In this document: piece by piece, positions 9,161-41,025 of the stretch
Numbering within the stretch: the first letter of the stretch is position 1
Layout of the letters: every line of letters starts with the position of its first letter
DNA from: Jutongia hominis
GTDB taxonomy: Bacteria; Bacillota; Clostridia; Lachnospirales; Lachnospiraceae
Assembly: GCF_014384965.1 (NCBI RefSeq)
Contig: NZ_JACRSW010000015.1
Coordinates: forward strand, 33,183 to 97,182
Length of the DNA: 64,000 bases
Reading direction: 5' to 3'
Position numbers and translations under genes: made by a program
The notes under the pieces: generated by a model
Told to the model about the DNA's origin: nothing
Databases searched by the model: none
The model's input: only the letters and a program-made list of their open reading frames with translations

Positions 9161-10330
9161 ATGGCAAAAATTGATATTATTTCAGGTTTTTTAGGAGCAG
9201 GAAAGACAACTTTGATCAAAAAGTTAATTGCAGAGGCTTTTCCGGGAGAGAAACTTGTGCTGATAGAGAATGAATTTGGTGAGATCGGTATTGATGGCGG
9301 ATTTTTGAAAGAAGCAGGTATTCAGATCACAGAAATGAATTCCGGCTGTATTTGCTGTTCTTTAGTCGGTGATTTTGGCAAAGCATTAAAAGAAGTTTTG
9401 GAAAAATACACACCAGACAGAGTAATCATTGAGCCATCAGGTGTCGGTAAACTTTCTGATGTCGTAAAAGCAGTACAGGATATCGGTGATTCTGTAGTGA
9501 TCAACAGTACCGCAACTGTTGTAGATGCATCAAAGTGCAAAATGTATATGAAGAATTATGGTGAGTTTTATAACAACCAGATCGAATATGCCGGAACGGT
9601 TATTTTAAGTCGTACACAGAATATCTCAGAAGAAAAGCTTGAAACCGTTTTGAAAATGATACGTGAAAAGAATGATGAAGCATCTGTGATCACAACTCCG
9701 TGGGATCAGATCAATGGTAAGAATATCTTAGAAGCCATGGAAAAGATCAATTCGTTAGAAAAAGAACTTGTAGATGAGCATGAACATCATCACCATCATC
9801 ATGATGGTGATAAATGCTGCTGTGGACATGACCACGACCATGAGCACCATCACGATGAAGAATGCGGACATGATCATCATGACCATGAGCACCATCACGA
9901 TGAAGAATGTGGATGCGGACATGACCATCACGACCATGAGCACCATCACGATGAAGAATGCGGATGCGGACATGATCATCATGACCATGAGCACCATCAC
10001 GATGGAGAATGCGGATGCGGACATCATCATGAACATGGACATCATCATGCAGATGATGTATTTACGAGCATGGGAATTGAGACGGCTCACAAATTCACTG
10101 AAGACGAGCTGTCTGCGATCATTGATCAGTTAGCAAAAGACAAGAAGTTTGGCGAAGTACTACGTGCGAAAGGAATCGTGCCGGCAGCAGAGGGAGAGTG
10201 GTTCCATTTTGATCTTGTCCCGGAAGAGACAGAAGTACGTCGTGGTGCGGCAGACTTTACAGGACGAGTTTGTGTGATCGGTTCTAATCTGGAAGAAGAT
10301 AAGATCAAGGAATTATTTAAAGTATCATAA
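9161..10330 (+). CDS. COG0523 (CobW/ZNG-like) metallochaperone GTPase with His-rich repeat
   Basis: A G3E-family GTPase, probably delivering a metal such as zinc, cobalt or nickel to client proteins. Walker A is SGFLGAGKTTLI (residues 8-19). The ENEFGEIGIDGG switch region and the metal-binding CxCC of NSGCICCSL follow, then EPSGVGKL. The usual NKxD guanine-specificity motif reads SRTQ. Residues about 208-300 are a Histidine/Asp/Glu/Cys tract built of four units of 14-17 residues (HHDHEHHHDEECGCG type). The C-terminal CobW_C domain (EGEWFHFDLVPEE) follows. AAAGGAAG precedes the ATG. The next gene is a second COG0523 GTPase. Metal identity is inferred only. Confidence 0.88.
   Translation: MAKIDIISGFLGAGKTTLIKKLIAEAFPGEKLVLIENEFGEIGIDGGFLKEAGIQITEMNSGCICCSLVGDFGKALKEVLEKYTPDRVIIEPSGVGKLSDVVKAVQDIGDSVVINSTATVVDASKCKMYMKNYGEFYNNQIEYAGTVILSRTQNISEEKLETVLKMIREKNDEASVITTPWDQINGKNILEAMEKINSLEKELVDEHEHHHHHHDGDKCCCGHDHDHEHHHDEECGHDHHDHEHHHDEECGCGHDHHDHEHHHDEECGCGHDHHDHEHHHDGECGCGHHHEHGHHHADDVFTSMGIETAHKFTEDELSAIIDQLAKDKKFGEVLRAKGIVPAAEGEWFHFDLVPEETEVRRGAADFTGRVCVIGSNLEEDKIKELFKVS
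9824..10018 (+). repeat. in-frame tandem repeat encoding the His-rich tract
   Basis: Four tandem units, each starting GGACAT: one of 42 bp (9824-9865) and three of 51 bp (9866-9916, 9917-9967, 9968-10018). They are near-identical, so copy number could vary between strains. Confidence 0.9.
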
Positions 10331-11373: not shown

Positions 11374-11422
11374 AACACTGCTAAAAGCCTGTACAGATAA
11401 CAGCCTTTTGGCAGTGTTTTTT
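11374..11422 (+). terminator. intrinsic terminator after the COG0523 pair
   Basis: A long imperfect stem, AACACTGCTAAAAG against CTTTTGGCAGTGTT, with a T-run. Confidence 0.85.
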
Positions 11423-11425
11423 GCT

Positions 11426-11653
11426 GAACTAAGAAAATGTCCGGTCAAGTCAACAAGAGATGAGAATTAAGAAAATGTCCGGGCAAGTCAGCAAGAGTTG
11501 AGAATTAAGAAAATGTCCGGGCAAGGCAGTAAGAGATGAGAATTAAGAAAATGTCCGGGCAAGGCAGTAAGAGATGAGAATTAAGAAAATGTCCGGGCAA
11601 GACAGCAAGAGTTGAGAACTTAGAAAATGTTCGCATAGGACAGCGAGAAATGA
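11426..11653. repeat. tandem array of six 38-bp units
   Basis: Six head-to-tail 38-bp units with no spacers start at 11426 and every 38 bp after. Each reads GAATTAAGAAAATGTCCGGG, then CAAG-CAG-AAGAG-TGA. Units 3 and 4 are nearly identical and the outer units diverge. The array fills the gap between a + strand terminator and the 3' end of a minus-strand gene. Confidence 0.95.
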
Positions 11654-11663
11654 GAATATACGA

Positions 11664-12707
11664 TCAGGGGGAAGCCAGCTGTAAAAGGGATCGGATCAGG
11701 ACTAAGGATAACGGACCGAGTAAGATCCCGCCGATACCAAAAAGCTCAATTCCGATAAAGATTGCAGCTAACATGACAAAAGCATTCAGATGCATACCAT
11801 CTCCAAGCAGTCTGGCTTCTAAAATCTCACGGATCAGTAAGGTGATAATGTAGGCAGTAAAAAGAATGGATGCATTCAGATATTCTTTTGAAAGGAATAG
11901 GAAAAAGCCCCATGGCAGCAGGAACATACCGCTTCCAAGAACAGGAAAAGCATCTAAAACAGCGATCGCAACGCCAAGCAGCAGAAAGTATGGGTTGTGT
12001 ATCAGGAAAAAAGCAAGAGAGCAGACGATACCATTTAACAGAAGAATGATCCCTTCGGTTTTCAGGTAAGTAAGTCCGCTCTCTTTTACGTTTGTCAGTA
12101 CAAAATGAACCGGAGTAAAATAGCGGCTTTTTCGAAACATATCATGTAAAGGTTTCATTTCCCGTACCAGAATGATCATCGAAACGCATACAATGATAAG
12201 AAAAGCAAATATATGAAACGATTGCGACAGCATATAATAGAGGCATTTCCATATGTTGTTATTCATAAATTTTGTTGTGTTTTTTCCGATTAAAGCCATT
12301 TGCTCGTATAAAAAAGTCTTTGCCGTGCCAAAATGTAAGTTGAAATGATGATCAATGCAGCGGCCAAAAGAAGCACAACGTGTTTCAAAAAAGGAAACTG
12401 CAGTCTGATGATAAACAGGTATATTGGTGAACAACAACCGGATCTGTGTATATAACTTGTAAATAACCGCACCAAAGAAAGCACTGATTCCACCAAAAAA
12501 GAGGATAAGTGTACCATAATGTGAAAAGAAACGCGGAAATTTGCATACATTGTGCAAATATTCCATGACAGGCCAGAGCATACGCATCAAAATATAAGCA
12601 AGCAAAAAAGGGAAGAGATAAGGCAGAAGAAATGTCATAAAAAGGTATACGGCAACTGAGATGCCAACCGTTATCATAAAATGACGAAAAAGAGATGTAG
12701 TATGCAT
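11664..12707 (-). CDS. AI-2E-family (YtvI-like) membrane protein
   Basis: A 347-residue polytopic membrane protein of the AI-2E transporter superfamily (PF01594), resembling the YtvI sporulation membrane protein. Hydrophobic segments fill residues 10-35 and 65-85, with several more in the C-terminal half. The characteristic end is GIELFGIGGILLGPLSLVLIRSLL. GAGGTCATT precedes the start. The substrate is unknown: most members of this family are not AI-2 exporters. Its 3' end abuts the 38-bp tandem array. A second, longer paralogue lies at 29221-30567. Confidence 0.8.
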   Translation of the reverse strand: MHTTSLFRHFMITVGISVAVYLFMTFLLPYLFPFLLAYILMRMLWPVMEYLHNVCKFPRFFSHYGTLILFFGGISAFFGAVIYKLYTQIRLLFTNIPVYHQTAVSFFETRCASFGRCIDHHFNLHFGTAKTFLYEQMALIGKNTTKFMNNNIWKCLYYMLSQSFHIFAFLIIVCVSMIILVREMKPLHDMFRKSRYFTPVHFVLTNVKESGLTYLKTEGIILLLNGIVCSLAFFLIHNPYFLLLGVAIAVLDAFPVLGSGMFLLPWGFFLFLSKEYLNASILFTAYIITLLIREILEARLLGDGMHLNAFVMLAAIFIGIELFGIGGILLGPLSLVLIRSLLQLASP

Positions 12708-15314: not shown

Positions 15315-16745
15315 CTAATAAGCATTTTTATTTACTTTTCTGCCAAAGAAAGTCAGGAAAAGTATTTTAAAATCCAAAAACAATGTCCAGTTCTCTACAT
15401 AATAAAGGTCGCATTCAATTCGCTTTGTGATAGAAGTGTCTCCACGATAGCCATTGACCTGTGCCCAGCCTGTCATGCCGGGGCGAACCTGATGCTTGAT
15501 CATGTAACGAGGAATCTCTTCCTTAAAACGGTCTACGAAGAAAGGACGTTCCGGTCTTGGCCCGACCAGACTCATATCTCCTTTTAATACATTAAAAAGC
15601 TGTGGAAGTTCATCCATATTGGATTTACGCAGGAATCTTCCGATTGGTGTAATGCGTGGATCGTTCTGAGTTGTCCAGGCTTTCTTCTCTTCATTTTCCT
15701 TTTGCACACGCATTGATCGGAACTTGTACATATTGAATTCATGGTTATGCAAACCGATACGTGTCTGTTTAAAGATCAAAGGGCCGGGATCCGTGATCTT
15801 TAAGATACAGGCAATAATGAGCATCGGAATTCCAAAGATTATTATTGCTACTAATGAACCAAAGATATCAACGCATCGTTTAATCGTAGAGTTAAAGGAG
15901 CTGCTTAAAGGAACATGCCGTACATGGATGACAGGCAGTCCGTCAAGATCCTCTGTATAAGGTTTGGTAGGGATCACATGATTATAATCAGGAATAAACT
16001 TTGTATGCACACCGGATTTCTCACAGATCGAAACAATATGCTCCAGTTTTGAATATTCATTGATACTTAATGTGATCGCAATTTCATCATATTCATTTGT
16101 TGCTAAAAGGTCTGCCAGACGATTCGTTGATCCGATTACTTCAATATTACGGTAAGTCGTGCCGGTACCGGCATGATCATCCAGAATACCATGGATTTTA
16201 TATCCCCATTCAGGATGGGAACGCAGACGGTCGATATAACCCTGTGCAGTACGGCTGAAACCAACTAAAAGAATGTGTTTTAGATTTTTACCGGAGCGTC
16301 GCATTTGTTTTAAGATACGAAGAACGCAAAGCCGGAAGATATAATCTACGACTAAATTGGTTCCTGCAAAAATGATCAGAAATAATCGTGCGATATTTGG
16401 CTCTTTTAATAGGTAGAGAGCCGCAACACAATAAACAACGCCGAGGACATTTGCTTTGATCAATGCCCATAGTTCGGCACGTCTGCCGTTTGTACGCTTA
16501 GGATCGTACATCCCAAATAAACGATACATGACCAGATAACACGGGATGATCAATATGAGCATTCGCAGATAATCACCCCAGGGCCGCATATAGCCGATCG
16601 GTGGTGAAATGATATGATGCTTGATCAACGGGCTCCATGTATCATCAAATCGAAGATCGTAAGCAAGTAAAAAGGATGCTGCAATGATGACAGCATCAAT
16701 CACCAGTTGTAAAATATTTAACAGTTTTTGATTTTCTTTGATCAA
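15315..16745 (-). CDS. undecaprenyl-phosphate sugar phosphotransferase (priming glycosyltransferase)
   Basis: It transfers a sugar-1-phosphate to undecaprenyl phosphate, the first step in making exopolysaccharide or O-unit-like glycans (WcaJ/CpsE type). Four or five N-terminal membrane segments are followed by a CoA-binding-like/Rossmann region ([17 protein letters not shown]). The catalytic bac_transf domain has [47 protein letters not shown] and [18 protein letters not shown] 16745 is preferred because GAAGGTGA precedes it; a GTG at 16766 has no site. No other polysaccharide gene is adjacent, so it is an isolated primer linked to a two-component system. Confidence 0.9.
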
Positions 16746-16946
16746 TGTTTCACCTTCTCTTTTCACGTAGAATGATATTTGTTCTGCCGGATACCGGAAA
16801 AATCCCCCTCGAACTTAATATCATATTTTATAAAAAATGTGATAGCTTTCTTTCTGATTTCTATTCAATATAAAATTTATTTGAATATATTATATCGGTT
16901 TACGGAATAATTCGCAATATATTCTTTGATCTTTTAGGCTCTTTTA

Positions 16947-17470
16947 GGCATTTGCAAAACAAAATGCATCCCCCTGAAACCATCCTCCCAAACAAAATGG
17001 AATGCGTCATATTCGTGTTTTTGAATTGTGTTTCTATTTCTTTTAATTTTAGGACAGACGCGACAGCTGATTAGAATTTTTGATTTTTTATTCTTTTTTG
17101 CTGATTGGGCGCGGGTCATAACTATAGGGGCGACTCAGCCTGAGTAGCATTGTTGTTTGGGACACGCTCCCGCTTCGCAAAGCCACGTAGCGCACACATA
17201 GACTGCTAAAAAACAGCAGCCAAGTGGCGACGGTCTTTGAGATTCCCAAACAGCAATGTACATCAGGACTGGCCCTGCCCCCTATATCAGATGAGAGCGC
17301 CCATAATCAGGGCAAAAAAGAAAAAAATCTTAAAAATTCCTATCAGCTGAAACAGTGCGCTTAAAATTAAAAGAAATAGAAACACAATCTGATCCGTTAA
17401 GATGTGACGCATTTCCGGTTTTGTTTGGGAGGATGTTTGGCACAGTACAGGAATTTGTTTTGCGAATGCC
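16947..17470 (+). repeat. palindromic structured element, copy A
   Basis: About 524 bp. The terminal inverted repeats are GGCATTTGCAAAAC and GTTTTGCGAATGCC. The arms pair over about 150 bp each (CATCCTCCCAAACAAAA, ATGCGTCA, TTGTGTTTCTATTTC and CAGCTGAT all recur inverted). A 196-nt core at 17107-17302 starts GGGCGC and ends GCGCCC. The copy lies between the divergent genes 15315-16745 and 17711-19588. Copies B and C are at 24808 and 31383. No ORF is conserved among the copies. Confidence 0.9.
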
Positions 17471-17710: not shown

Positions 17711-19588
17711 ATGGATGAAAATAAAGAGGAAAAGAGTACGCAGTATACCGGCGAATATGGCAATTCGGTAGAAGGAAATTATCAGGAAGAAGGATCATCG
17801 GTGTATAGTTATTCTTATAATAATAAAAACAGCGAAACAACACATTCCGGTGATTATTACGAATCTAAGAACACAGCAGACAGCCAGAGCACGCAAAGTG
17901 CTGCAGGAAATGAGCAGGCAGGTTATCAGAAAAGTGGTTATAATCAGAGCAATAACGGACAGACAGGCTATCAGCAGGGTGGTTATAACCAGAGCAATAA
18001 CGGACAGACAGGCTATCAGCAGGGCGGTTATAACCAGAGCGGTAACGGACAGACAGGTTATCAGCAGGGTGGTTATAACCAGAGTGGCAACGGGCAGACA
18101 GGCTATCAGCAGAATGGGTATGATTCAAATGGAAACGGATCAGGTTACCGGCAGGGGAATTATTACCGGTCGGGCAATTTCCAGAACAACGAAAATCCGA
18201 AAAAACCAAAGAAAAATAGAAAGCCAAGAGAGAAAAAGCCGCTTACTTTTGGAAAAAAAGTCGGTCTTGTTGCGGCAGCAGCTGTTTTGTTTGGTTTAGT
18301 AGCCGGTATTTGTTTTAATGCAGTGAATTATGTATCAAACCGGGTTTTAGGTGATAACGGTTCGACTTCCGGTACTTCAATTGCTACTACTTCTACAGGA
18401 AATGTAGCAACAAACAGTGCAATTGGTACAAATGATGTATCAGCGATCACGGAACAGACGATGCCGGCAGTTGTAGCGATCACAAGTACAACAGAGGGAA
18501 CAGCCTATTATGATCTGTTTGGCCAGTATAACAAAGGACAGGATTCAACCAGTGCAGGTTCCGGTTTTATTGTAGGTCAGAATAAAAAAGAGCTTTTGAT
18601 CGCAACAAATAATCATGTAATTGATGGTGCCAAGACGATTTCTGTACAGTTTATTGATGGTGAAGTATATGAAGCAACAGAAAAAGGTGCGGATTCATCA
18701 AATGATCTTGCCGTTGTTGCTGTAAAGACTTCTAAAATGAAGAAATCAACGATGGACAAGATCAAGATTGCAGACCTCGGTTCCTCTGATGATATCAAGG
18801 TTGGTGAAATGGTTATTGCAATCGGTAATGCTCTCGGATATGGCCAGTCAGTTACCGTTGGATATATCAGTGCGAAAGACAGAGAGATTACGGAATCTTC
18901 TGAAACGAGTTCAAAAGAAAACAAGATCAAAGCAATTCAGACAGATGCAGCAATCAATCCGGGTAACAGCGGAGGAGCTTTGATCAATATGAAAGGACAG
19001 GTTGTCGGTATTAATTCTGCCAAGATCGCATCTTCTTCTGTAGAAGGTGTCGGTTATGCAATTCCGATCTCCGTTGCGACACCGATCATTGATGAATTAA
19101 TGAATCGTGAGACTTTGAACGATTCACAGAAAGGATATCTCGGAATTACAGGAAGTACCGTATCAGAAGCTGCTACAGCTTATAATGTACCATATGGTGT
19201 TTATGTTAAGGAAGTTGCCAAGGGAGGAGCAGCAGACAAGGGTGGAATCAAAGCCAACGATGTCATTACAGCTGTAAATAAGATGGAAGTCACAACGATG
19301 GAAAGTCTTCAGGAAAAGGTCAACAGCTATAAGAAGGGTACAGAGATCACGATCACCTTACAGCGAAGTAACAACGGAAAATATACGGAAAAGAAAGTAA
19401 AAGTTACTTTGCAGGGAAAAGAATCTTTAGACAGCTTGTCAACAGATGACAGTTCAAGTGCTGATAATTCACAGGATAGTCAGAATAATAACGGTCAGAA
19501 TGGATACAACCGGAATAATGGTCAGGACAATGACCAGAATGATGGTAACTCAGATAGCGGAAGTCTATGGGATCAGTTCTTTAACTAA
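17711..19588 (+). CDS. HtrA/DegP-like membrane-anchored serine protease with Q/N/G repeats
   Basis: A 625-residue surface protease for protein quality control. Residues 1-180 are predicted cytosolic and low complexity, with four 15-residue repeats (GYNQSNNGQTGYQQ type, residues 75-134) and a Lys-rich stop. One membrane helix spans about 183-204. The trypsin-like domain has His302 (NNHVID), Asp332 (SSNDLAVV) and Ser420 (NPGNSGGAL). A PDZ domain occupies about 470-560 (GYLGITG...GIKANDVITAV). The tail is N/Q/D/S-rich and ends SLWDQFFN. AATGGAGG precedes the ATG. The catalytic triad is intact. The long repetitive N-terminus is unusual compared with B. subtilis HtrA. Confidence 0.93.
   Translation: MDENKEEKSTQYTGEYGNSVEGNYQEEGSSVYSYSYNNKNSETTHSGDYYESKNTADSQSTQSAAGNEQAGYQKSGYNQSNNGQTGYQQGGYNQSNNGQTGYQQGGYNQSGNGQTGYQQGGYNQSGNGQTGYQQNGYDSNGNGSGYRQGNYYRSGNFQNNENPKKPKKNRKPREKKPLTFGKKVGLVAAAAVLFGLVAGICFNAVNYVSNRVLGDNGSTSGTSIATTSTGNVATNSAIGTNDVSAITEQTMPAVVAITSTTEGTAYYDLFGQYNKGQDSTSAGSGFIVGQNKKELLIATNNHVIDGAKTISVQFIDGEVYEATEKGADSSNDLAVVAVKTSKMKKSTMDKIKIADLGSSDDIKVGEMVIAIGNALGYGQSVTVGYISAKDREITESSETSSKENKIKAIQTDAAINPGNSGGALINMKGQVVGINSAKIASSSVEGVGYAIPISVATPIIDELMNRETLNDSQKGYLGITGSTVSEAATAYNVPYGVYVKEVAKGGAADKGGIKANDVITAVNKMEVTTMESLQEKVNSYKKGTEITITLQRSNNGKYTEKKVKVTLQGKESLDSLSTDDSSSADNSQDSQNNNGQNGYNRNNGQDNDQNDGNSDSGSLWDQFFN
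17933..18112 (+). repeat. 4 x 45-bp in-frame tandem repeat in the protease gene
   Basis: Four contiguous 45-bp units encode the Q/N/G/Y repeats (residues 75-134). They differ by a few substitutions only. Confidence 0.9.
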
Positions 19589-23081: not shown

Positions 23082-23705
23082 TTATATATGCTGGTAATAA
23101 AAGACAGCAAGCTGTGTGCGGTCACGCAGTTCTAATTTTTCTAATATATGACTCAGATAGTTGCGGACAGTTCCTTCACTTAGAAAGAGCTGAGCCGCAA
23201 TTTCTTTATTGCTGAGTCCGTCAGCAATCAATTCAATGATCTGTAATTCCTTTTTGGAAATAGCATATGCAGAATAATCAAAAGAAGATTTTTGTTGTAA
23301 AAAGTCAGGCAGCTTGGAGATTACTTCTGTTCCAAAGACACTCTGACCGCTTTTGACGGCTTTTAAAGCAGGATAAATGCTGTTATAATCCTGCTTTAAT
23401 AAGTAACCTTTCGCACCGATCTGTAATGCTTTGATAATATATTCATCATCATTAAAAGTAGTCAGAAGAAGTATTTTGGCATCTTTGTCCTGTTTTAAGA
23501 TTTCTTCGGTGGCTTGTAATCCATCAACTTCTTTCATCTGAATATCGGTTAATAAAATATCGGGATGGTATTTGAGGTAAAGAGCAATAGCATCTTTGCC
23601 ATCCTGTCCGATTGCTGCAACTTCAATATCGTCATTGCTTTCTAAAATTGTTTTTAATGCTGTCGTTACAAGAATATCATCATCTACGATCACGATCTGT
23701 ATCAT
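23082..23705 (-). CDS. NarL/LuxR-family response regulator (LnrK/YfiK-like)
   Basis: A receiver (QIVIVDDDILVTTAL, Asp in PDILLTDIQM, LLLTTF, KGYLLK) plus a LuxR helix-turn-helix (SKKELQIIELIADGLSNKEIAAQLFLSEGTVRNYLSHILEKL). 207 residues from ATG 23705, which has GGAGG seven bases upstream. It overlaps its kinase by 26 bases. By position it pairs with the divergent ABC exporter at 25702-28954. The inverted repeat TGTCACA-N7-TGTGACA in that promoter region is a plausible binding site. Confidence 0.93.
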   Translation of the reverse strand: MIQIVIVDDDILVTTALKTILESNDDIEVAAIGQDGKDAIALYLKYHPDILLTDIQMKEVDGLQATEEILKQDKDAKILLLTTFNDDEYIIKALQIGAKGYLLKQDYNSIYPALKAVKSGQSVFGTEVISKLPDFLQQKSSFDYSAYAISKKELQIIELIADGLSNKEIAAQLFLSEGTVRNYLSHILEKLELRDRTQLAVFYYQHI

Positions 23706-24783
23706 TTTTTTCCTCCTTTTTCGGTATTGAAATGAAAATGCGAAAACCATTCCTGGCAGTAATCTGTATCATACCATTGGCATTTTGTACCCGTTCCTGC
23801 ATATTGATCATACCGATTCCGGAAGTGTGGTCAGACCATTTTTGTACATTTTCACTGCTTCCGTTATCCTGTGTGATCAACTGATAGAAAGCCGGATGTT
23901 CCCGCAATGAGATATCAATACGGGTTGCATTGCTGTGTTTGGCGGTGTTTGTAAGAGCTTCCTTTACGATCGACAGAAATGTATAGCGGATATTGGCAGG
24001 CAGCTCCGATTCGATATCATATTTCAAATTTACTTTACAAAAAGTATAATTCTGAATCAGACTATGTAAGCTTTTTTGCAAATCAATCGAGTTGTCATGC
24101 AGGTTATGTACACTCGATCGGATATTATCCATTGTCTGCGTTAATGTATCTTCTAAAAGAGTCAGGGAATCCGTTATCTTCTGATCCTGATTTATCGTTT
24201 TGACCGCACCAAGCAGCAGAATCGCTCTGGTCAGCATATGCCCGACGTTATCATGGATCTCGCGGGCAATGCGGTTTCGCTCCTGCAAGGTGGCATTATG
24301 GATCTCATAATTCTGATTTTTAAGCAAAGTCTGGTTTCGCTCTCTTAAAAGAATATCGTGCTCAGTTGTATCGTCGCGAAGAGAAAAGTATTGCTGTTGT
24401 AATCCTTCGAGTTTTCTTATCAATATAGCGATCCAGAAAGCGGTTCCGTTTTGTAAAAGGGAAAGAAACAGCAGGAGAGAATCGGCATGGAACTGATACA
24501 GAATACCGATTGCAAGGAGTGGCAGAGGGACAAAGCACTTTTTATATGTAATGGAAAATGTCAGCATAGGAAAAAAGATGACGAATTCTTTTTGAAATAA
24601 TGCCAAAACAGCATAAAGAGCAAACAGCAGCAGGAAAACATTTGTCTGATTAAAAAAATAAGATAACGACAATACAAAAAGGGAACAAAGCATAGCGATT
24701 ATGGCAATGTTGTTGCTGCATATCTGAAAAAACATTGTACAGCAAAAGCAAAAAAGCAGAAAATGACTAATAAAAATGCGCAA
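23680..24783 (-). CDS. NarL-type sensor histidine kinase (LnrJ/YfiJ-like)
   Basis: 367 residues. The N-terminal ~125 residues contain about five hydrophobic helices with little extracytoplasmic sequence, typical of membrane-embedded sensors. HisKA_3 is LQERNRIAREIHDNVGHMLTRA with the phospho-accepting His. HATPase motifs are EALTNTAKHSNA and SGIGMINMQERV. The start is TTG 24783, supported by GAGGAGG eight bases before it. With its regulator and the divergent ABC-2 transporter it matches the layout of systems that sense membrane-active compounds, such as linearmycin in B. subtilis. Confidence 0.9.
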   Translation of the reverse strand: MRIFISHFLLFCFCCTMFFQICSNNIAIIAMLCSLFVLSLSYFFNQTNVFLLLFALYAVLALFQKEFVIFFPMLTFSITYKKCFVPLPLLAIGILYQFHADSLLLFLSLLQNGTAFWIAILIRKLEGLQQQYFSLRDDTTEHDILLRERNQTLLKNQNYEIHNATLQERNRIAREIHDNVGHMLTRAILLLGAVKTINQDQKITDSLTLLEDTLTQTMDNIRSSVHNLHDNSIDLQKSLHSLIQNYTFCKVNLKYDIESELPANIRYTFLSIVKEALTNTAKHSNATRIDISLREHPAFYQLITQDNGSSENVQKWSDHTSGIGMINMQERVQNANGMIQITARNGFRIFISIPKKEEKNDTDRDRR

Positions 24784-24807
24784 TGCAACCCCTCCTCATA
24801 TCTTAAG

Positions 24808-25364
24808 TTCCACAAACATTTGCAAAACATACCACCGTACTGTGATGACCATCCTCACAACAAAGAAATGAGATGCGTCATATTAGTAGATTTCATTTGT
24901 GTTTCTATTTCTTTTTTATTTTTTGGATAGACACGACGGCTGATTAGAATTTCTGATTTTTTAAGCTTTTTTGCTTATTGGGCGCGGTTCATAACTATAG
25001 GGGCGACTCAGCCTGAGTAGCATTGCTGTTTGGGACACGCTCCCGCTTCGCAAAGCCACGTAGCACACACATAGCACTGCAAAAAGCAAATGCTCTTTTT
25101 GCAGCGCAAGTGGCGACGGGCTTTGAGATTCCCAAACAGCAATGTACATCAGACAGGTCCTGCCCCTATATCAGATGAGAGCGCCCATAATCAAAAGCAA
25201 AAAAGCAAAAAATCCCAGAAATTCTTATCAGGCGAAACAGTGCTTCAAAAAATAAAAAGAAATAGAAACACAATTCGGACTCTAAGGATATGACGCATTG
25301 TAATATTTGCAAGTGTGAGGATGGTCTCAATGCAATATAGTGTGTTTTGCAAATGTCTTTGGAA
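24808..25364 (+). repeat. palindromic structured element, copy B
   Basis: About 557 bp. The ends TTCCACAAACATTTGCAAAA and TTTTGCAAATGTCTTTGGAA are inverted repeats. The 207-nt core spans 24980-25186. Relative to copies A and C the apical hairpin is longer, CTGCAAAAAG/CTTTTTGCAG instead of CTGCT/AGCAG, with pairing kept. It lies between the divergent genes 23680-24783 and 25702-26631, leaving their promoters outside it. Confidence 0.9.
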
Positions 25365-25505
25365 TTTCAGCTTATCATGTGGGGGACGTGTCTGTCAATT
25401 ATTTGAAATGCCGGCTGTAGATAGGAGATATGCATAGAAATGATTGTAGGGAATGTCAGGATACAGGAATTGTATAGAGGGAAGGGGTGCCAGGCGGTGA
25501 CTTTA

Positions 25506-25533: not shown

Positions 25534-25701
25534 CTTAGAACTATTTTTATATGATACAAGACGATATAATAAAGGTGTCATAAAGAAAAACGCATGCTGG
25601 TAAGTGAAATACAAGCCGGAAGTGCAAAAAGAACAAAGTATACCGGCAAGTGGAATAAAAGACCAAAGTATCACAACATCATGGAAGGAATGAGTGCAAA
25701 T

Positions 25702-26631
25702 ATGATAAAAATTGAGAATTTAGTAAAGCGATATGGCAATCTGGTTGCCTTAGATCATCTGGATCTTGAGATTGCAAAGGGAGAAATCTTTGGACTGCTA
25801 GGTCCGAACGGATGTGGGAAAACAACAGCGATCGGCTGCATTCTTGCACTTTTAAGATATGACAAAGGTGAAATTACGATCTGTAGTGAAAAGATGACAC
25901 CCGAAAGTTATGATCTGAAAAGAAAGATTGGCATTGTGCCACAGGAAGTTGCCGTTTTTGATCAGCTTACGGTACAGGAAAATATTGATTATTTCTGTGG
26001 TTTGTATTTGCCAGACAGAAAAAAGAGGAAAGAATATGTTGAAGATGCGATCACATTTGTTGGATTAAATGATTACAAAAAAATGTATCCGAAGCAATTA
26101 TCGGGCGGACTGCTGCGAAGATTAAATATTGCCTGTGGTATTGCACACAAGCCGGAGATCATTTTTATGGATGAGCCGACAGTGGCAGTCGATCCGCAGA
26201 GCCGTAATCATATATTAGAAGGAATCCGCAAATTGAATCAGACAGGAGCAACGATCATTTACACTTCACATTATATGGAAGAAGTAGAGCAGATCTGCAC
26301 ACAGATTGCCATTTTAGATCATGGACAATGCATCGCAAAAGGAACCAAAGAAGAGTTAAAACAAATGATCCGAACAGGCGAAAAGATTACTGTAGAAGAA
26401 GCTGCCCTAAGCGATCAGCAGCTTGAGCATATCAGACAGATGGAGCAGGTTTATGCAGTGGATTATCAGGAACAGGTTCTTTTAGTACGATTTGATGGAA
26501 CGGATCATAATATTGTAAAACTTTTGCAATATCTACAAGAGCAAACGATTTGCTTTGGCAGAGTGTACTCAGAACTGCCTACATTAAATGATGTATTCTT
26601 AGAAATTACAGGGAAGAGCTTACGTGATTAA
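25702..26631 (+). CDS. ABC transporter ATP-binding protein (LnrL/YfiL-like)
   Basis: The ATPase subunit of an ABC-2-type exporter. Walker A is GPNGCGKTT, the Q-loop QEVAVFD, the signature LSGGLLRRL (LSGGQ variant), Walker B IIFMDEPTVAVD and the H-loop TSHYMEE. The C-terminal ~90 residues resemble DUF4162-type tails of drug and bacteriocin exporters. ATG 25702 (MIKIENLVKRYGN) fits the family start. In-frame ATGs at 25690 and 25681 exist, and GGAAGGA is better spaced for neither. Two permease genes follow directly, forming a three-gene operon. Confidence 0.92.
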   Translation: MIKIENLVKRYGNLVALDHLDLEIAKGEIFGLLGPNGCGKTTAIGCILALLRYDKGEITICSEKMTPESYDLKRKIGIVPQEVAVFDQLTVQENIDYFCGLYLPDRKKRKEYVEDAITFVGLNDYKKMYPKQLSGGLLRRLNIACGIAHKPEIIFMDEPTVAVDPQSRNHILEGIRKLNQTGATIIYTSHYMEEVEQICTQIAILDHGQCIAKGTKEELKQMIRTGEKITVEEAALSDQQLEHIRQMEQVYAVDYQEQVLLVRFDGTDHNIVKLLQYLQEQTICFGRVYSELPTLNDVFLEITGKSLRD

Positions 26632-30713: not shown

Positions 30714-31376
30714 CTATCGATGTGCTACAAAGCGGCAGATCGGCTTTCCTTCTGCGTAGAATTTCTGTTCGTACTCCGTCATGACATTATTTGGGGCGGG
30801 ACCGTCTTTGTGCAGATCAAAAGAAACTTCATCCTTGATCCAGTTCATGGCGTTCAGTTCTTCTAAAGAAAAATCAAACAAAGGTCGGTTATCGGTTTTG
30901 AACTGTACATATCCGTCTTTTGTTAAGATCTTGTCATAACGTTCCAAAAAGCAGCGTGAAGTCAATCTTCTTTTTGAATGACGATCCTTTGGCCATGGAT
31001 CCGAAAAGTTCAGATAGATCTTTGAAATCTCGTCCGGTGCAAAGTAGGAAGTGATGTCTTCTGCATCCATTCGCATAAAACGGAGATTTTCTAATTCAAG
31101 ATCAGCTCTTTTATCTAAGGCACGAACCAGAACACTCGAATATTTCTCGATTCCGATATAATTTATATCAGGATTTTCTTTTGCCATCTGTGTGATAAAC
31201 TGTCCCTTTCCCATACCAATCTCAATATGGATCGGATGATCATTGTTGAAAAAATTCTGATTCCATAATCCCTTGAAATCTTCTCCGTTTTCACCATCAG
31301 TCTGTATTGTAAAAGCGTCATTTAGGATGCGTTCCTGCGATCCCGGTACATTTCTAAGTCTCATGAAAAACCTCAT
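30714..31376 (-). CDS. trmB: tRNA (guanine-N7-)-methyltransferase
   Basis: Makes m7G46 in tRNA using SAM. The 220-residue protein starts MRLRNVPGSQERI after four optional residues. It has the SAM site HIEIGMGKGQFI, NYIGIEKYSSVLVRAL, LRFMRMDAED and the hallmark NFSDPWPKDRHSKRRLT. The end is KFYAEGKPICRF. Full length, with no anomaly. Its 5' flank is occupied within seven bases by element copy C, so its promoter must lie in or beyond the repeat. Confidence 0.95.
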   Translation of the reverse strand: MRFFMRLRNVPGSQERILNDAFTIQTDGENGEDFKGLWNQNFFNNDHPIHIEIGMGKGQFITQMAKENPDINYIGIEKYSSVLVRALDKRADLELENLRFMRMDAEDITSYFAPDEISKIYLNFSDPWPKDRHSKRRLTSRCFLERYDKILTKDGYVQFKTDNRPLFDFSLEELNAMNWIKDEVSFDLHKDGPAPNNVMTEYEQKFYAEGKPICRFVAHR

Positions 31377-31382
31377 TTCTAT

Positions 31383-31908
31383 TCAGCCATTTGTAAAATA
31401 CACTCTTGTACTGTGATGACCATCCGCATGGCAAAAATGAAATGTATCATATTCATGTTCTTGATTTGTGTTTTAAGTTTCTTTTAATTTTTTGAATAGA
31501 CACGACAGCTGATTAGAATTTTTGATTTTTTATTCTTTTTTGCTGATTGGGCGCAGGTCATAACTATAGGGGCGACTCAGTCTGAGTAGCATTGCTGTTT
31601 GGGACACGCTTTCGCTTCGCAAAGCCACGTAGCGCACACATAGTCTGCTAAAAAACAGCAGCCAAGTGGCGACGGGCTTAGAGATTCCCAAACAGCAATG
31701 TACATCAGAACTGGCCTTGCCCCTATATCAGATGAGAGCGCCCATAATCATGGCAAAAAAGAAAAAATCTTAAAAATTCTTATCAGGTGAAACAGTGCTT
31801 CAAAAAATATAAGAAACTTAAAACACAGTGTAATCTTTTAAGATATGATGTATTTCCGTATTTTTCCATACTGGTGGTTTCGGAAAAGACTTTTTTGCAA
31901 ATGTCTGA
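31383..31908 (+). repeat. palindromic structured element, copy C
   Basis: About 526 bp. The ends are TCAGCCATTTGTAAAA and TTTTTTGCAAATGTCTGA. The 195-nt core at 31549-31743 differs from copy A at about a dozen positions. Both arms carry TTTTAAGTTTC where copies A and B carry TTTCTATTTC, so the two arms changed together. It lies between divergent trmB and argC. Confidence 0.9.
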
Positions 31909-38816: not shown

Positions 38817-40439
38817 ATGATGAATCGAAAAAAATGGATCACATGGGTGATAATATGGAGCTGCGTGATTAGTATGCTGCTTGGAAATGCCAATGTCAGT
38901 GCACAAGAGACGCATCCTTCTTTTCCGTTTACTGTGTCCGATGCACAGTCTATGGTATACAGTCAGTTATATTCTGTTGCAATGACAGCAACGTCAGGTG
39001 CTCTCTATACATTTGATACATCTGCGACAGAGGCGGATTATCAATTAAAATTCTTTGTAAATGCCGGAACTTCTTTTCATGCACAGATTTATGATGCATC
39101 CGGTGTATGCAGACTTGACCGGATTTTTACAAATGCGCAATATGCCCGTTTTTCCCTGACACAGAGTACCACGTATTATCTGTATATCAATGGGGAGATT
39201 GGAACAGCAGGTGAAGTATTGCTATCAAAGGTAGCGGATGATTTTGGAGATACGATGCAATCAGCCTTTGCAATGTCTTTTAATCAGGAATATGCAGTAA
39301 GTACAGAAATTGCAAATGACGAGGATTATTTATGTTTTACACCGAATGGCGATGACGCATCGTATGTTTTATGCATAGAACCGATCATCGGAACAACAGC
39401 GCAATATGAAGTCTGGGCGGCCGGACAGCGAATTGATCCATATTGCGGAACGATCGGAACAGGAAAAATTGCTTTTGAACTTTCTATGCGTGCAGGACAA
39501 AGTTACTATTTAAAGATTACTTCGACGCAACAGGGACATCAGGTGATTGTATCTGTATTAAAAAATATTCGTAATTATGAAGTCCGCTATCATTTAAATG
39601 GTGGCAATAATGTTTCCGGAAACCGGACGGTATTTGCTGCGACTGATAGCTGGAAATTGCAAAATCCGACACGACAAGGCTACACTTTCGGGGGCTGGTA
39701 TCTGACACCGAAGATGACAGGACGTGTCTATAATATGAGCGGTGCCGGCAGAAAAAGTGTAGACTTATATGCCAAATGGAATGCGGTCCGTATTACAAAA
39801 GGTTCAACTGTGAAGGTACAAAAAAAGAAAAAGAGTATGAAAATTTCTTTTGGAAAAATAGCCGGGGCATCCCGCTACCGGTTGCAAGTCAGTACTAATG
39901 CAAAATATCAGAAAGCAAAAACATATACCTTAAAAACAACATCGAAATCAATATCCCGTAATACAAAATCTAATTATTATATTCGCGTCTGTGGCTACAA
40001 TATTGATTCAACAGGCACAAAAATTTACGGAGGTTATTCTACTACAAAGAAAGTAACTGCTGATAAAACGAAGAAAAAGAGCACAAAGAAAGCAAGCAAG
40101 AAGAAGTCAAGGTCTAAAAAGAAGAAAACAAGCAAGAAGAAGTCAAGTTCTAAAAAGAAGAAAGCAAGCAAGAAGAAGTCAAGCTCTAAAAAGAAGAAAG
40201 CAAGCAAGAAGAAGTCAAGCTCTAAAAAGAAGAAAGCAAGCAAGAAGAAGTCGAGTTCTAAAAAGAAGAAAGCAAGTAAAAAAACAAGTGCGAAAAGGTC
40301 AATTGCAAAGAAGACAAGCAAGAAAACCGCAAGTAAAAAGAAATCGACAGCAAAAAAGACAAGCAGTGCAAACAAGAAAAAAGCAAATACAAAAAAGTCC
40401 GTTTCAAAGAAGACAAATAGTATAAGCAAGAAAAAATAA
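38817..40439 (+). CDS. secreted protein with InlB/Flg_new repeat and Lys-Ser-rich tail
   Basis: 540 residues. A signal peptide (NRKKWITWVIIWSCVISMLLG, cut near NVSA) leads. A beta-rich N-terminal region of about 230 residues resembles pre-peptidase-type domains. A single Listeria-Bacteroides (Flg_new) repeat follows (YEVRYHLNGGN...RQGYTFGGWYL...VDLYAKWN), then an Fn3-like stretch (GASRYRLQVSTN). The last ~125 residues are almost only Lys, Ser, Ala and Thr, including five 12-residue units (ASKKKSSSKKKK). The tail may bind anionic wall polymers. AGGAGGT lies six bases before ATG 38817. Confidence 0.78.
   Translation: MMNRKKWITWVIIWSCVISMLLGNANVSAQETHPSFPFTVSDAQSMVYSQLYSVAMTATSGALYTFDTSATEADYQLKFFVNAGTSFHAQIYDASGVCRLDRIFTNAQYARFSLTQSTTYYLYINGEIGTAGEVLLSKVADDFGDTMQSAFAMSFNQEYAVSTEIANDEDYLCFTPNGDDASYVLCIEPIIGTTAQYEVWAAGQRIDPYCGTIGTGKIAFELSMRAGQSYYLKITSTQQGHQVIVSVLKNIRNYEVRYHLNGGNNVSGNRTVFAATDSWKLQNPTRQGYTFGGWYLTPKMTGRVYNMSGAGRKSVDLYAKWNAVRITKGSTVKVQKKKKSMKISFGKIAGASRYRLQVSTNAKYQKAKTYTLKTTSKSISRNTKSNYYIRVCGYNIDSTGTKIYGGYSTTKKVTADKTKKKSTKKASKKKSRSKKKKTSKKKSSSKKKKASKKKSSSKKKKASKKKSSSKKKKASKKKSSSKKKKASKKTSAKRSIAKKTSKKTASKKKSTAKKTSSANKKKANTKKSVSKKTNSISKKK
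40092..40271 (+). repeat. 5 x 36-bp in-frame tandem repeat (Lys/Ser tail)
   Basis: Five 36-bp units of the pattern GCAAGCAAGAAGAAGTCAAG, then CTCTAAAAAGAAGAAA. They are near-identical, with a few substitutions. Confidence 0.9.
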
Positions 40440-40638: not shown

Positions 40639-40689
40639 AATCATGGTACATTGACAATAAAATATGGTGTTCTGTCATAATAGGATAAA

Positions 40690-40885
40690 AATAGCGCCAG
40701 GTACCTTTTACATTGGTCGATAGGAGTAAAAGGTTGACGAGGAAAAGGGTGATCGAAAATTCGGCGGATGCCCTTTCGTAGTTCCCGCTGCGGATATATT
40801 GGCAAATATGCAGGTAACTGCAAAACAAATTCAATATAACGGGAAAACGGTTGGCAGTACGTGCAGATAAAGAGCGAAATCACGT
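40690..40885 (+). ncRNA. glmS ribozyme: glmS ribozyme/riboswitch
   Basis: A glucosamine-6-phosphate-activated self-cleaving RNA in the glmS leader. Conserved blocks are the cleavage-site sequence AGCGCC (cut between A40693 and G40694), GGTTGACGAGG (40732 on), GTGATCGAAAATTCGGCGG and the P3/P4 segments beyond. Feedback: when GlcN6P is abundant the leader cuts itself and the mRNA is degraded. The 3' limit is approximate. Confidence 0.92.
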
Positions 40886-41025
40886 TTTACCAACAGATCA
40901 CAAAGAAACAAAAGTGATCGTGAAAACAAGAAAAATAAAAAGCATATGCTATAGAAAGAGTAGTGACAGTAAAAGAAAGATATTTTATTTCTCAAAAAGA
41001 CTGTCACAAAAGAGAGGAAATAATT

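Follow-up and report, generated by a model that had tools for sequence, protein, structure and literature searches.

Giant palindromes in a Lachnospiraceae-type genome: probable MITE-like mobile DNA elements with a conserved structured tip

Three giant palindromes, here called copies A, B and C, lie in the 64-kb stretch of DNA that we analysed as a whole (the window), and we consider it probable, at a rough estimate of 0.7, that they belong to a family of non-autonomous, MITE-like mobile DNA elements, which is dispersed in Lachnospiraceae-type genomes, carries a structured tip and keeps its pairing at the level of DNA. On this reading, an element would be built of ends that are the terminal inverted repeats of a DDE insertion sequence, in this case an IS1182-related one, which would supply the transposase in trans; of two long arms, free in sequence, in which complementarity would be kept, changes appearing mostly as a matching pair; and of a conserved tip of approximately 95 nt, which would stay constant while the arms change. 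Terminal repeats, target duplications and sites that are empty in related genomes all support movement of the family through DDE transposition; for the window copies themselves, mobility is assigned only by kinship with these relatives.

The window palindromes and their relatives

A preliminary description of the window, made from its sequence, had located the three copies correctly to within a few bases (Table 1) and had claimed that each folds end to end. This was borne out: the folding energies of A, B and C were -236.2, -254 and -205.5 kcal/mol, respectively (z -14.4 to -20.5), none of 100 dinucleotide shuffles of any copy folded as well, and the complementary strand of copy A, folded separately, gave a z of -14.5. 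The copies share 83-89% pairwise identity (over 427-458 aligned nt) and one orientation, each lies between divergent genes, their ends are variants of GGCATTTGCAAAAC, and their arms extend over 138-234 aligned bases (up to about 235 per arm).

Table 1. Positions, within the window, of the three palindromes and of their terminal repeats and tip modules. R1 is the covariance model of the tip described in the text.
Feature	Position	Strand	Remarks
Copy A, giant palindrome	16947-17470	+	Fold z -16.4; flanked by a wcaJ-like gene (15315-16766, -) and an htrA-like gene (17711-19588, +)
Copy A, left terminal repeat GGCATTTGCAAAAC	16947-16960	+	TA before it; 1 mismatch to GGC[AG]TTTGCGAAAC
Copy A, right terminal repeat GTTTTGCGAATGCC	17457-17470	-	
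Copy A, tip module	17155-17252	+	R1: 48 bits, E 6.1e-11
Copy B, giant palindrome	24808-25364	+	Fold z -20.5; inverted repeat traceable to 24802-25370
Copy B, flanking histidine kinase gene	23680-24783	-	
Copy B, flanking ABC ATPase gene	25594-26631	+	
Copy B, left terminal repeat AACATTTGCAAAAC	24815-24828	+	
Copy B, right terminal repeat GTTTTGCAAATGTC	25344-25357	-	
Copy B, tip module	25028-25138	+	R1: 35.8 bits, E 1.6e-7; apical hairpin longer than in A and C
Copy C, giant palindrome	31383-31908	+	Fold z -14.4; lies upstream of both trmB (30714-31364, -; about 20 bp away) and argC (+)
Copy C, left terminal repeat GCCATTTGTAAAAT	31386-31399	+	
Copy C, right terminal repeat TTTTTGCAAATGTC	31892-31905	-	
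Copy C, tip module	31597-31694	+	R1: 49 bits, E 3.3e-11

The paired differences between copies to which the same description had drawn attention, TTTCTATTTC / TTTTAAGTTTC and CATCCTCCC / CATCCTCAC, are both present, and the arms do match better within a copy than across copies: pairing of the left arm with its own right arm was 0.902 in A, 0.850 in B and 0.887 in C, compared with 0.813-0.861 for the right arms of the other copies, although this comparison is biased towards the own arm because the pairs were taken from each copy's own fold. Covariation within the window copies alone is modest. Across the three copies, 134 of the 207 pairs of copy A are invariant and 14 have changed on both sides with all copies paired, the rest being one-sided changes (13), broken pairs (35), double changes with one copy broken (6) and gapped pairs (5).

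Copy A had no match in phage and plasmid records, one relative element had none in phages, one tip had none in phages and plasmids, two tip patterns were absent from the viral contigs scanned, and an 18-base core from the window had no exact match in a genome-contig collection. Exact words from the window cores had one match each in viral contigs, which we judged to be due to chance. The family was detected only by a protein-anchored scan followed by BLAST of the relatives. With TrmB, whose gene adjoins copy C, as the anchor, we recovered 80 related loci, titled mostly as Lachnospiraceae or related genera, and one of these (L043, in genome G206) holds two further hairpins, which share the tip words and have terminal repeats of the same kind. 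BLAST of the core over the 195 relatives of the nearest genome, with three candidates scored per genome, gave seven weak matches, of which L083 and L085 are sited in hairpins of their own, L084 and L086 were dismissed on inspection, and the remaining L087-L089 were scanned for tip words only. A BLAST search with one copy gave 46 matches in G206 and 34 in G207. In the titles and abstract beginnings of the open-licence literature, we found no published description of this repeat family.

Elsewhere in the window lie a glmS ribozyme (40682-40848, 88 bits), which precedes the glmS gene at 40963, and tandem repeats at 11388-11691, 40050-40318, 9782-10075 and 17915-18139, with spacings of 36-51 bp, most of which are inside or overlap ORFs.

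Terminal repeats, target duplications and empty sites

The window-type end, GGC[AG]TTTGCGAAAC, also bounds an IS1182-related insertion sequence in relatives. The ends of this insertion sequence, GGC[AG]TTTGCGAAAC / GGTAATTGCGAAAC, are common to it and to the hairpins, as are duplications of approximately 14-16 bp, and the same type of terminal inverted repeat is seen on hairpins, on the window copies and on the insertion sequence copies L168, L223, L338 and L339. In G206, the window-type pattern had 17 matches, compared with 0 for the reversed control; 11 of these were at hairpins and one was at the insertion sequence. The insertion sequence is approximately 1.76 kb long and its transposase is 84% identical between G001, a relative of the window, and the hairpin-rich G206, where the transposase adjoins a window-type end. 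The 500-aa transposase of L168 matches DUF772, matches DDE_Tnp_1 weakly (22.3 against 23) and scores 84 bits against NF033551, for which the cut-off is 270; it is an IS1182 relative whose membership of the family is unconfirmed by the curated cut-off. An IS1182-related transposase was present in six of the 30 genomes tested, and only in G206 among the 11 of these 30 that were chosen for hairpins with window-type or similar ends, an end type confirmed for G206, G093 and G292 only, so the link between insertion sequence and hairpins rests on ends and duplications, not on co-occurrence.

Duplications of approximately 14-16 bp flank the insertion sequence copies L338 and L339, the tip-less MITEs L152 and L153, and the hairpins L239 (16 of 16 positions), L183, L225 and L094, and L043 has a duplication of 19 bp. 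A duplication score of at least 8 was reached by nine of 34 candidate pairs, compared with a mean of 0.55 (maximum 2) with shuffled flanks. A first blind scan had given duplications in eight of 94 cases, against 2, 0, 0 and 0 in the controls; three of the eight (L083, L189 and L202) look like inner palindrome words instead.

In one intergenic region of G206, two neighbouring hairpins are absent from the orthologous gap in all ten relatives that have both flanks (11 were examined, L299 having one flank only); this gap measures 57-245 bp in the relatives, compared with 576-702 in G206, and holds no match to the tip model in any of them. No target duplication was detectable at A, B or C. The window copies are approximately 520-560 nt long and their tips score 36-49 bits, compared with 194-234 nt for the relative elements measured and 108 bits for the best tip of the family; they are diverged, long-armed and apparently old members, for which class and end type are supported and recent movement is not. 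The same description had named a match to a known IS end as a finding that would speak against it. The IS1182-related terminal repeat is a match of this kind and accounts for the ends, leaving the conserved tip unexplained.

A second end type, GTAACAGTTCAG, exceeded its control pattern in G372 (81 compared with 16), G207 (56 compared with 20) and G219 (40 compared with 8), less so in G001 (21 compared with 10) and not in G433, G206, G003 and G474, all counts being among the matches listed. Of 14 elements with GTAACAGTTCAG ends in G372 and G219, eight are flanked by 8-bp duplications that have one mismatch or none, for each of which the chance expectation is approximately 0.0004. No autonomous partner for these ends was found. 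IS66 was absent from G372 and G219, and its candidature as their origin is unsupported; a 1.84-kb pair of GTAACAGTTCAG ends in G372 (L270), considered as an autonomous element, is really a hairpin copy into whose tip an IS4-like element has inserted, with a 9-bp duplication (L270:796-2638; 438-aa transposase, NF033592 at 164.6 bits). There may be a third end type, GGAAATCAATTTTCAG: one G372 copy that carries it (L217) is flanked by an exact duplication of 9 bp.

Several side observations concern the insertions and their surroundings. G003 contains a second non-coding element of approximately 238 bp, which is tip-less and has the same terminal repeats (L150, L151, L152, L153 and L156); six copies were seen to share their first 40 or so bases, and several G003 contigs terminate in this element or in others with the same ends. 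Two G372 contigs, C29 and C13 (L277 and L289), break off within an element, close to the tip of the palindrome, and in four more (C12, C21, C31 and C32) the end pattern lies 138-152 nt from the contig end, judged by position alone among the matches listed; short-read assemblies may break at the tip and undercount copies. The IS, MITE and hairpin insertions with GGCnTTTGCGAAAC-type ends (for example, L043, L097, L123, L152, L163 and L223) show a tendency to lie immediately upstream of Shine-Dalgarno sites. Of 64 outside flanks, each 35 nt long, 38 contain a Shine-Dalgarno-complement word, compared with nine of 61 control stretches farther out. By reading, copy B has such a word at 24790-24797, 17 nt outside its left end, and copy C has a weaker CCTC, 11 nt outside its end.

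The tip module and the nature of the pairing

The covariance model R1 was built from 27 tips of four genomes (G206, G207, G210 and G007), from which the window tips were excluded. Run over the 64-kb window up to an E-value of 10, it matched exactly three places, the centres of A, B and C, and it also matched L083 and L085, both of which are outside its building set. R1 matched 153 of the 397 genomes sampled from G206's family, presumably Lachnospiraceae to judge by the titles of the anchor loci, with up to ten candidates scored per genome, so that per-genome copy numbers are lower bounds, and in 11 of 391 genomes from the class, eight of which were already on the family list.

A wider alignment lacking covariation had been put forward as another finding that would count against the preliminary description, and the opposite was observed. 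In a MAFFT alignment of the 27 tips, 17 of the 27 pairs have changed on both sides and the covariation score was 0.385, compared with 0.132 for shuffled and at most 0.087 for slid alignments; when 113 distinct tips were fitted to the model, 25 of the 27 pairs had changed on both sides, and the score was 0.590, compared with 0.199 and at most 0.108, respectively. The tip, of approximately 95 nt, has an 11-nt bulge on one side, (A)CGCTYTCGCT, a second bulge of two bases, AR, a variable apical hairpin and an A.A mismatch within CTAAG/CTAAG. Among the 113 tips, the unpaired columns 11-14 and 17-20 (CGCT-YT-CGCT) are 97-100% conserved while the stems vary, and A38 (100%), A126 and A153 (98%) and A49 (91%) are similarly constant, values that are somewhat overstated, as motif words and R1, a model that favours the conserved bulge, were used to gather the tips.

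Strong covariation around near-invariant loop columns, together with fold z values of -14 to -20, is what a large structured non-coding RNA of the ROOL, GOLLD or OLE sort would display, the covariation then arising from a selected RNA fold, and the preliminary description had allowed for such an RNA. Our premise was that, were an RNA fold under selection, the transcribed strand would have more G.U pairs than A.C mismatches. When left arms were aligned with right arms in a strand-symmetric way, which gave a result for 79 of 121 motif hits (the other 42 were false motif hits, short arms or contig ends), there were 93 G.T and 101 A.C (p 0.62), alongside 3,960 Watson-Crick and 223 other combinations. 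The tip stems gave 67 G.T and 58 A.C, or 33 and 58 when a single pair, which is T.G in 34 of the 113 sequences, was left out. By comparison, RNase P RNA from 25 relatives' genomes, with the structure predicted by RNAalifold, gave 239 G.U and 18 A.C. The complement of RNase P, folded as RNA, still gave 316 compared with 48 (tips treated alike gave 67 and 59), from which it follows that the folding step itself picks G.U, and that the control indicates the size of the effect rather than providing a fully symmetric test. A tRNA control (39 G.U and 0 A.C) was put aside, since ARAGORN reported no mismatch whatever.

Two observations lean towards RNA, namely the T.G at that one tip pair and a set of eight G372 copies, aligned by RNA folding, with 24 G.T and 9 A.C, which points against the DNA reading; the same eight copies have 294 pairwise Watson-Crick double changes, compared with 192 one-sided ones, and 772 of their 810 cells are Watson-Crick. 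Nevertheless, the equal frequency of G.T and A.C in the arms, and the tip counts set against those of RNase P, disfavour a large non-coding RNA, and the pairing seems to be kept at the level of DNA. The family was not recognised in the preliminary description, and at the gathering score Rfam likewise offered only glmS over the whole window, with nothing over the palindromes; at a relaxed E-value, copy A and the loci of ten relatives gave merely sub-threshold matches over the hairpins. Nor did the tips have any clear orientation bias with respect to genes: of 52 with a neighbour on both sides (eight inside a called ORF and three with one neighbour were left out), both genes were opposite in 16, both the same in 14, divergent in 13 and convergent in nine. 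With copies sitting in target duplications and missing from related genomes as well, we regard the RNA explanation as very unlikely. Of what the preliminary description had proposed, a hairpin kept as a unit and a non-autonomous element are both supported, and the large non-coding RNA is not.

The family also recalls REP/REPIN-type palindromes, which are moved as single-stranded hairpins by a Y1 (RAYT) transposase: its hairpins are dispersed and lie mostly between genes, reach many copies per genome and have conserved bulges, with a conserved G-T/C-A-G/A tetranucleotide at the AR bulge. The tetranucleotide, however, is internal to the stem rather than an unpaired foot, and the DDE-type terminal repeats and the 8-bp and 14-16 bp target duplications are at odds with such a mechanism. 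Of the clusters shared among the 181 ORFs that surround tips, the largest had seven members, including the ABC ATPase of the window, and the others had two or three; ABC ATPases are a common protein family. We consider movement of this kind very unlikely. A replication-strand bias of the tips, assessed by GC skew, was not significant (66 compared with 47, p 0.09).

It is more difficult to set aside plain MITEs, that is, relics of insertion sequences formed by internal deletion, in which the tip would be merely inherited and have no function of its own. They would have IS-type ends with matching target duplications, as observed, and a tip-less MITE with the same ends exists in G003. The same tip, however, occurs in elements that differ in their ends and in the length of their duplications, which internal deletion of one insertion sequence does not predict, and deletion predicts neither the 97-100% conservation of the bulges, in tips collected with the tip model, nor the variability of arms and stems around them; we consider this explanation unlikely.

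For the mobile elements with a structured tip that we favour, we propose that the arms would be re-made complementary by fold-back copying, through either template switching or palindrome correction. Such copying has been described for quasipalindromes, and a case has been made that it gives rise to RNA hairpins and preserves them (PMC8794818). Because fold-back copying is expected to erase one-sided bulges, the near-invariant 11-nt and AR bulges point to selection on the tip; these bulges might escape homogenisation and be held by selection as single-stranded or cruciform DNA that is read by a putative factor. More tentatively, and in our view with the odds against it, the tip could be an autonomous recognition module riding on ends that are interchangeable and come from two or more unrelated DDE transposons, with arms renewed by fold-back synthesis, each cycle of which would rebuild a near-perfect palindrome, and with a reader, such as a single-strand DNA enzyme or a host factor for replication or repair, common to Lachnospiraceae. 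Were this true, the element would be a hitch-hiker of modular build, distinct from both plain MITEs and REPINs.

Covariation is usually taken as proof of a functional RNA, and here it occurs without the G.U signature and in a large natural data set, which bears on how well template switching and palindrome repair can mimic selection on RNA (compare PMC8794818). The analysis has also uncovered an abundant and so far unrecognised repeat family, with a conserved DNA hairpin, in a major family of gut bacteria.

Comparison with known systems

Like bacterial MITEs, the hairpins are short, non-coding, dispersed and mostly intergenic, have the terminal inverted repeats of an insertion sequence, are flanked by target duplications (in relatives, none having been found for the three window copies) and are absent from the corresponding sites of related genomes. 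They differ from bacterial MITEs in that the interior is a near-perfect palindrome with a structured tip that is shared across genomes and end types. The IS1182-related insertion sequences (NCBIfam NF033551; Pfam DUF772 and DDE_Tnp_1), by contrast, encode the transposase that the hairpins lack, and those copies that we read have no tip. With structured RNAs the hairpins share neither the tolerance of G.U over A.C, apart from the eight-copy subset, nor a match to an Rfam family at the gathering score.

The REP/REPIN-RAYT system and the GTAG/CGTC palindromes are, like the hairpins, high-copy and intergenic and have conserved unpaired bases, according to PMC3733652, where the CGTC class is reportedly without a dedicated transposase; neither Firmicutes nor Clostridi appears as a word in the main text of that article. 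REP and REPIN sequences are described there as 20-40 bp long with a tag unpaired at one end (PMC3733652), whereas the elements described here have DDE-type ends and carry their conserved bases at the tip. An unpaired GTAG (or CGTC) foot on a 20-40 nt hairpin was not seen in our family. The hairpin tips also resemble integron attC sites, in which a folded DNA strand has conserved extrahelical bases and a stem of free sequence; unlike attC sites, the hairpin elements have DDE-type ends.
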